Assembly (NCBI GenBank): GCA_029248665.1
Contig: JAQWIW010000020.1
Coordinates: 1-64,000, forward strand
Origin: Opitutia bacterium
GTDB lineage: Bacteria > Verrucomicrobiota > Verrucomicrobiia > Opitutales > Coraliomargaritaceae
Reading direction: 5' to 3'
Length of the DNA: 64,000 bases
The notes under the pieces are model-generated. The model made no database searches, had not been told where the DNA came from, and worked only from the letters and a program-made list of their open reading frames with translations. The translations under genes and the position numbers were made by a program. This document shows positions 14,483 through 15,935 of the stretch, piece after piece (the stretch's first letter is position 1; the number at the start of each line of letters is the position of its first letter).

Positions 14483-14517
14483 TTAAAATTATTTAGAATA
14501 CGAAGAAGAAATTAAAG

Positions 14518-14547
14518 AAAAAAAGGGAGCTATTTAAATAGCTCCCT
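14518..14547 (-). terminator. strong intrinsic terminator after the small membrane protein pair
   Basis: AGGGAGCTA (14524-14532) pairs with TAGCTCCCT (14539-14547), a 9-bp stem with a 6-nt loop. On the minus strand it is followed by seven T residues (14524-14518). It sits 26 bp after the stop of the 73-aa gene. Confidence 0.9.
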
Positions 14548-14573: not shown

Positions 14574-14795
14574 TTAGTCTGATAATAAACCTAGCACAAT
14601 AATGCCAGCAATAACACTCACCAATGATGCTCCGCTACCAATGAAGCCGTCAAGTAATGCAGTAATGTTTCCGATTACATCGAAACCAGTGCCACCGATT
14701 ACAATTTGAGCAATGATTAATAGGCCAGCTGCAGAAATCAGAAGACCTTTAAGTCCACCGATGATTGAATTTACGAGATTTGTAATGTTGTCCAT
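14574..14795 (-). CDS. small double-span membrane protein (paralogue 2)
   Basis: A 73-residue, almost entirely hydrophobic protein with two predicted spans (about residues 14-36 and 53-71) joined by a Gly/Asp/Asn loop. It starts MDNITNLVNSIIGGL and ends IIVLGLLSD. It has no Cys or His and nearly no charge in the body. It appears to be a diverged copy of the gene just upstream (both begin M-x-x-I-T, have a GG-rich turn, and end in a GLL-x-x hydrophobic helix). The topology recalls VirB2/TrbC-like pilin subunits or phage coat-like proteins, but I see no decisive motif. The strong terminator behind it suggests an abundant transcript. Confidence 0.8.
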   Translation of the reverse strand: MDNITNLVNSIIGGLKGLLISAAGLLIIAQIVIGGTGFDVIGNITALLDGFIGSGASLVSVIAGIIVLGLLSD

Positions 14796-14835
14796 ATTTT
14801 TATAGTTAAGGTTAATGTTTGTTTATATGTGTCGG

Positions 14836-15063
14836 TTATTTTCTTAATAATCCAACGATTAGTAGAAGGGCGATAAGCCCGACGAAACCATTTTCTCCGC
14901 CAATCGAACTAACGATTGATGAAACATTAGAAACCACACTGGTTCCTAACATAGAACCTTGGCCGAATATAATTTCGACTACGATTCCTAGTGCAATAAA
15001 ACCAATACCTAGTTTAGTTACTGTTTCAATTACACCAGTTATTTGTGCTGTTATTCTTTCCAT
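14836..15063 (-). CDS. small double-span membrane protein (paralogue 1)
   Basis: A 75-residue hydrophobic protein with two spans (about residues 15-35 and 57-73) and a Ser/Val-rich middle segment (VVSNVSSIVSSIGG). It starts MERITAQITGVIETV and ends LIVGLLRK. It shares length, layout and end motifs with the 73-aa gene 40 bp downstream. Neither gene has a Shine-Dalgarno sequence; both leaders are A/T-rich. A well-formed promoter lies about 75-105 bp upstream. Function unknown. Confidence 0.8.
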   Translation of the reverse strand: MERITAQITGVIETVTKLGIGFIALGIVVEIIFGQGSMLGTSVVSNVSSIVSSIGGENGFVGLIALLLIVGLLRK

Positions 15064-15098
15064 ATTTACTTTTTAGGGTTAAACAAAGGCATTTGTCT

Positions 15099-15113
15099 CG
15101 GTAAGAAGTACCG
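15099..15113 (-). promoter_or_regulatory. 5' leader hairpin of the small membrane protein unit
   Basis: CGGTA (15099-15103) and TACCG (15109-15113) form a short 5-bp stem with a 5-nt loop in the predicted 5' untranslated region, about 36 nt before the first start codon. It is too short to be called a known element. Confidence 0.35.
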
Positions 15114-15138
15114 CTACGGATTAGCCAATGAAAAAAGC

Positions 15139-15168
15139 AGTAAAGTTTTGAAATAATATCGCTGTCAA
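15139..15168 (-). promoter_or_regulatory. sigma70-type promoter for the small membrane protein unit
   Basis: On the minus strand a perfect TTGACA (15168-15163) is followed after 18 bp by TTTACT (15144-15139), giving a start near 15131 and a leader of about 70 nt before the 75-aa gene. Confidence 0.55.
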
Positions 15169-15569: not shown

Positions 15570-15935
15570 ATGTTTTTTAATTTTCTTTTAGAGAAGCATT
15601 GTTCGGCTTGCGATAAGTTAGATCGAAGTCATGCAACAGGAGATAATGTTTTAAACTCCAATCGTTCATTTTGTTCCTGTAGTGAATTAAAAAGCTTTTA
15701 TTTTAAATCGACAATACTCCTTAGAATTATGCAGACTACTGCCTTAGTTGTATTATTTACAGCTACTGTTTCTACTTTATTTTTGGTGCGAAATTCATCA
15801 ATTTTTAATACAGATATTAATACAGTTATTACTGGATATGCGAATACTCAAAAAGGGCTTGATGAATTAAATTCAAAGCGAGAACAGGAGCAATTTGCAC
15901 AGCAAACTATTTTTTTAGAAAATGATTCAAAATAA
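15570..15935 (+). CDS. hypothetical protein with one membrane span and Cys-rich head
   Basis: A 121-residue protein of unknown function. The first 40 residues hold a CSAC pair and a CSCS cluster, followed by one membrane span (about residues 52-72, IMQTTALVVLFTATVSTLFLV) and a polar C-terminal part of about 45 residues with coiled-coil-like LDELNSKREQEQFAQQ. A shorter start at the Met near residue 54 would leave a signal-anchor protein. Codon use is AT-rich like its surroundings. It may be a real orphan gene, but coding is not certain. Confidence 0.5.
   Translation: MFFNFLLEKHCSACDKLDRSHATGDNVLNSNRSFCSCSELKSFYFKSTILLRIMQTTALVVLFTATVSTLFLVRNSSIFNTDINTVITGYANTQKGLDELNSKREQEQFAQQTIFLENDSK

Follow-up and report, generated by a model that had tools for sequence, protein, structure and literature searches.

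Sequence comparison places genes A and B of the window (the whole stretch of 64,000 nucleotides of Opitutia bacterium DNA that was analysed) in one undescribed family of two-span membrane proteins of 70-80 amino acids, whose members were found in three bacterial phyla and in marine T4-like viruses. Although the bacterial phyla with members number at least three and the marine viral contigs hundreds, the family is unnamed in the curated libraries searched here, probably because nearly all of its members are in uncultured organisms. The reading that we favour, with a confidence somewhat below even, is that the family, which phages encode as well, forms an oligomeric inner-membrane hairpin that alters the cell envelope.

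Genes A and B and their transcription unit

Gene A (15063-14836, minus strand) encodes a two-span membrane protein of 75 aa (MERIT...GLLRK), of a type also present in phages, Flavobacteriales and Planctomycetota. Gene B (14795-14574, minus strand) encodes its two-span paralogue of 73 aa (MDNIT...GLLSD), of a subtype seen in Opitutales only. The two open reading frames of 75 and 73 codons given in the original prediction were both located there on the minus strand. The 40 nt between them (14796..14835, minus strand) end with TTAACTATAAAAAT, before the start of B. The prediction had also described a diverged tandem pair of double-span proteins, and profile alignment agrees with this: hhalign of A1 against A2 gave a probability of 97.5 and an E-value of 7.5e-12 over 74 columns at 28% identity, and A and B are, as judged by sequence, true homologues and old paralogues. 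Comparison with same-genus relatives gave a dN/dS of 0.15-0.21 for gene A and of 0.05-0.12 for gene B; consequently, both are real genes under purifying selection, and spurious reading frames were ruled out by these ratios together with conservation. The genome of the window holds no further copies beyond A and B. As for the strong expression that had been proposed, codon usage suggests it for B alone: the usage of B is ribosomal-like (p = 0.0016), and that of A is not (p = 0.26).

An intrinsic terminator (AGGGAGCTATTTAAATAGCTCCCT plus a T tract) is located at 14517..14547 on the minus strand; its stem of 10 bp spans 14547-14524, and its folding compared to shuffles gives z = -3.7. Terminator-like sites in the region number 4, compared to 0.5 expected. 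Opitutales relatives have an equivalent intrinsic terminator 40-60 nt 3' of B, and the sequence of these stems varies between genera while the pairing is retained. The predicted terminator is thus upheld, and the A-B pair with a terminator of its own supports the view of a dedicated transcription unit. The predicted promoter with a perfect TTGACA box stands only in part. The box, a possible -35 element, is present at 15168-15163 (15163..15168, minus strand) within an inverted repeat (15177-15158), but the candidate -10 element, TTTACT at 15139..15144 (minus strand, 18-nt spacer), is weak and absent from the output of the consensus scan. The TTGACA box is not conserved within the genus of the window; in the second Opitutales group, TTGAC is found upstream of A at its loci.

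Conservation of the pair in Opitutales

When B was searched against 57 relatives, 27 had matches at E <= 1, and the strong matches were mostly from the same family. A genome-wide scan with A yielded 65 loci, comprising 37 from MAGs of Opitutales and related Verrucomicrobiota, 22 from Flavobacteriales/Bacteroidota and 6 from Planctomycetota. B follows A in the window and in all 37 of the 37 other Opitutales loci examined, so that the proposed check, conservation of the pair in Verrucomicrobiota relatives, came out in its favour. The two outcomes named beforehand as contrary to the original prediction were not found, since no known family is matched and relatives have retained the pair. In the tree, the Opitutales A sequences (OpA) form one clade (98/97) and the B sequences (OpB) another (99/98), which implies that A and B had duplicated before the two Opitutales groups diverged. 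The genes that flank the A-B unit vary from genus to genus, and the unit is therefore regarded as autonomous. The description of the locus as an accessory pocket is misleading, because the flanks vary by genus, yet A and B each form a single Opitutales clade. Among the well-assembled genomes of the family, those bearing the pair are smaller, with a median of 1.75 Mb compared to 3.1 Mb (p = 0.002, ignoring relatedness).

A local prophage remnant was considered and rejected, as the flanks are ordinary chromosomal genes and the Opitutales sequences are not nested in phage clades in a tree of few columns. The adjoining orphan membrane protein of the window (15570-15935, plus strand) has an N-terminal CxxC/CxC zinc-ribbon-like motif, and it also lies next to the unit in the genus relatives L021 and, in diverged form, L022. 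At L018 1501-1647, genome G027 has what is left of gene B, interrupted by an internal TGA and with no intact A nearby; this lineage seems to be losing the unit.

The RNA leader before gene A

The probable 5' leader of gene A (15064..15132, minus strand) contains a CGGUA/UACCG hairpin at 15113-15099 and, directly before the start codon, the conserved TTTAACCCTAAAAAGTAAAT. A leader with a hairpin had been predicted; the hairpin is present but folds weakly by itself (z = -1.9), and it is in same-family relatives of other genera that a covarying leader is found. In these relatives, the 200 nt upstream of A fold into six helices; CAAAG, directly at the ribosome-binding site, is paired by one of them. 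Paired cells amount to 97.8%, compared to 34-46% in slid versions, 13 pairs show compensatory changes on both sides, and the observed covariation score was reached by 0 of 500 shuffles. The covariance model of this leader (R1) matches upstream of A only; it does so in 12 of the 57 relatives, with a single match for each copy of the pair. A second leader type occurs once in each of 6 genomes of the other Opitutales group, and its covariation (A5; 3 of 12 pairs) is weaker than that of the first.

The R1 model gave no match in the genus of the window (G000). The leader of this genus has diverged beyond the covarying R1 type, and it retains the short hairpin and a TTTAACCC-A-rich stretch ahead of the start; an outer helix predicted there is not claimed, because it possibly lies upstream of the transcript start. 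At the gathering threshold, Rfam searches of seven loci returned tRNAs only and no leader family. An element of a wider regulon was ruled out, as the leader is found solely in front of gene A, and a covarying leader specific to this gene represents a new cis-acting RNA element. Two different leader-bearing copies of the pair were seen in one bin (G013, contigs C61 and C141), where contamination is possible (6%).

Family signature, predicted topology and distribution

In the family signature, an amphipathic N-terminus runs into helix 1 (...ALGIVxEIVFG), and there is a near-invariant Gly (Gly34 in A numbering, 91 of 93 alignment rows). The signature further comprises a loop with the near-invariant Asn46 (A numbering, 90 of 93 rows) in VVxNLT, followed by GFVGLVAL and a basic C-terminus. 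In the AF2 model of A (31 rows; monomer, pLDDT 86, moderate pTM of 0.53), helices span residues 2-33, 43-58 and 60-74. The charge is about +2 at the C-terminus and about -1.5 in the loop, and TM2 is essentially uncharged. The family is predicted to be a helical hairpin of the inner membrane with an N-in/C-in topology, to which the charges point.

A Foldseek search of the AF2 model of A against the PDB and BFVD returned nothing. The original prediction recognised no family, and the wider searches agree: the family has no match in Pfam, NCBIfam, PHROGs, the PDB (by sequence or fold) or BFVD (by fold), three family queries found no match in cultured phages (INPHARED), and nothing on the family was found in the literature. 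A search of IMG/VR with A yielded 26 loci, and a profile of phage plus Flavobacteriales members yielded at least 241 contig stretches, 80 of which were kept. An HMM of 47 phage members only recovered A of the window at 2e-17 and B at 2e-6, compared to 0.08 for the best composition shuffle; shuffled and reversed controls ruled out an artefact of hydrophobic composition. No B-type genes were found in viruses.

In Flavobacteriales, the family gene is followed by a gene for a PKD-domain protein in 20 of the 20 loci of that cluster. A palindrome lies between these two genes at Flavobacteriales loci, and apparent selU and selD genes come after the PKD gene (L061, L072, L076 and others). Tandem pairs of family genes are also present in a second, small group of Flavobacteriales (L080, L083). 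No envelope gene is conserved beside the copies of Opitutales and Planctomycetota.

Phage gene neighbourhoods

Several of the IMG/VR contigs that bear the family are plainly T4-like. The family gene directly follows a gene for a small outer-membrane beta-barrel with a signal peptide at 38 of the 71 distinct viral loci; this barrel gene lies 23-163 nt upstream and encodes about 133-149 aa with a C-terminal Phe. This barrel matches PF13505 at E = 0.0012, below the curated cut-off; its AF2 model is all-beta (pLDDT 71), and the best PDB fold matches, OmpA-short and other small barrels, are weak (E 0.003 and above). It has no match in cultured phages (INPHARED). T4-like marine contigs with a small beta-barrel of their own, bearing a Bacteroidota-style signal peptide, are numerous (L096, L126, L150-L202). 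The recurring phage pair, an outer-membrane barrel and then the hairpin, offers a testable claim on envelope alteration by marine T4-like phages.

Other neighbours were also observed. In L102, the family gene is located between the head maturation protease gene (phrog_207, 9.5e-58) and a scaffold-like gene, after which comes the major head protein gene (phrog_138, 3.7e-68), and in L097 it follows the tail tube gene. A gene for a small membrane protein of 51 aa (SSWFRAALAGG...GVRELLLA.K) adjoins the family gene in 7 of the 71 viral loci (L092, L093, L095, L098, L103, L106 and L144), and this protein has no significant match in Pfam or PHROG. The motif TTAAC is enriched before phage start codons (29/62 vs 45/400), which probably reflects the general phage 5' region. 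A TATATTTGC-type sequence resembling a Bacteroidota promoter is found close upstream of the phage family gene in L151-L154 and L159, so a dedicated promoter is possible for the phage copies, too.

Proposed function and alternatives

Under the envelope reading that we favour, an abundant hairpin oligomer would change the state of the envelope, either its permeability or the organisation of the inner and outer membranes. The two paralogues of Opitutales, which are probably transcribed together, would assemble into one hetero-oligomer encoded by the autonomous unit, and the structured leader would tune translation or mRNA stability. In phages, a single-gene version, most often coupled to the phage-encoded outer-membrane beta-barrel, would control the host envelope during infection. 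We infer this role from the gene neighbourhood in phages; it is supported because the phage gene is coupled to the gene for an outer-membrane barrel and at some loci to genes for lysis. A broader formulation, in which streamlined marine bacteria and their phages share a previously unseen envelope-remodelling device, a hairpin oligomer coupled to a barrel in phages and made as a two-subunit version under an RNA leader in Opitutales, is possible but is held lightly.

The main rival is a holin-like role, which we judge unlikely. The phage protein would act as a class II-like holin or as a partner in lysis timing, and the pairs in bacteria would be domesticated holin-like proteins, possibly effector and regulator. 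Class II holins are small, with two spans, an N-in/C-in topology and a basic C-terminus, and the size, predicted spans and charge pattern of the family would fit this layout (PMC9636201). Lysis-type neighbours are also present: in L107-L109, a GH24 endolysin gene (PF00959, 4e-29) comes first, a gene for a small SSKKF membrane protein second and the family gene third, and in L110/L111 the family gene follows an endolysin-linked domain (phrog_33083) and an SSKRF protein. An SSKRF-type protein is also encoded in L090. However, the endolysin neighbourhood holds for L107-L109, partly for L110/L111 and not for most viral loci or Opitutales, and most phage copies adjoin outer-membrane barrel or head genes instead. 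Searches of 31 members against PHROGs and Pfam gave no consistent holin profile match (one member each, E 0.18 and 8.1), and a lethal pore is hard to reconcile with a unit that bacteria retain stably. Holins are usually far less conserved in sequence across phyla than this family, whose cross-phylum conservation is too high for typical holins.

It is somewhat less probable still that the proteins are scaffolds or small regulatory subunits that form no pore, that is, stress- or lipid-organising hairpins that bind a larger membrane protein encoded elsewhere. Small conserved hairpins often regulate larger complexes, the A-B unit is autonomous across varying genomic contexts, and the structured leader suggests a regulated dosage, all of which would suit such a role. 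On the other hand, no conserved partner gene was found in Opitutales, and the usual partner in phages is a barrel of the outer membrane, not a complex of the inner one.

A secreted or membrane-active antagonist pair, resembling two-peptide or leaderless bacteriocins, or a type I toxin is very improbable. Two small hydrophobic genes lie side by side, B has an N-terminal IGG, and the leader before A recalls the structured leaders of some type I toxin mRNAs; however, Gly-Gly is missing near the N-terminus in the A rows, neither a transporter nor an immunity gene was seen beside the unit, and A-type genes occur in structural and lysis neighbourhoods of phages. The least probable reading is the pilin- or coat-like filament subunit of the original prediction. 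Small hydrophobic helical subunits from a dedicated unit might suggest it, as might weak matches to T4SS_pilin (E 0.45, one member of the 31 searched) and to an inovirus coat protein (E 0.074), but those matches are at noise level, the proteins have two spans and not one, they carry no signal peptide or prepilin motif, no profile or fold is matched, and no secretion machinery or virion genes lie beside the bacterial copies.

Comparison with known systems

Small barrels of the OmpX/OmpA type resemble the upstream neighbour of many phage copies (signal peptide, barrel-like, C-terminal Phe) and not the family itself; this neighbour was not seen next to bacterial copies. VirB2/TrbC and T4SS pilins are likewise small proteins with two hydrophobic helices, but the family differs in that it lacks a signal peptide and neighbouring genes for type IV secretion and has a profile match at noise level only. 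Subunit c of the F-type ATP synthase (PF00137) is similar as a hairpin of 75-80 aa with two long helices (2-33 and a kinked 43-74 in the model of A). In contrast to subunit c, the family has no acidic residue in helix 2, no PF00137 match and no ATP synthase genes nearby, and its conserved Glu/Gln is located at the loop end of helix 1, unlike the helix-2 carboxylate of subunit c. Class II holins such as S21 are of similar length, likewise have two spans and a basic C-terminus, and share with some phage copies the adjacency to an endolysin; the family differs from them in lacking a profile match, in its conservation across phyla, in the paralogue pair of its bacterial members and in the barrel that is its usual neighbour.
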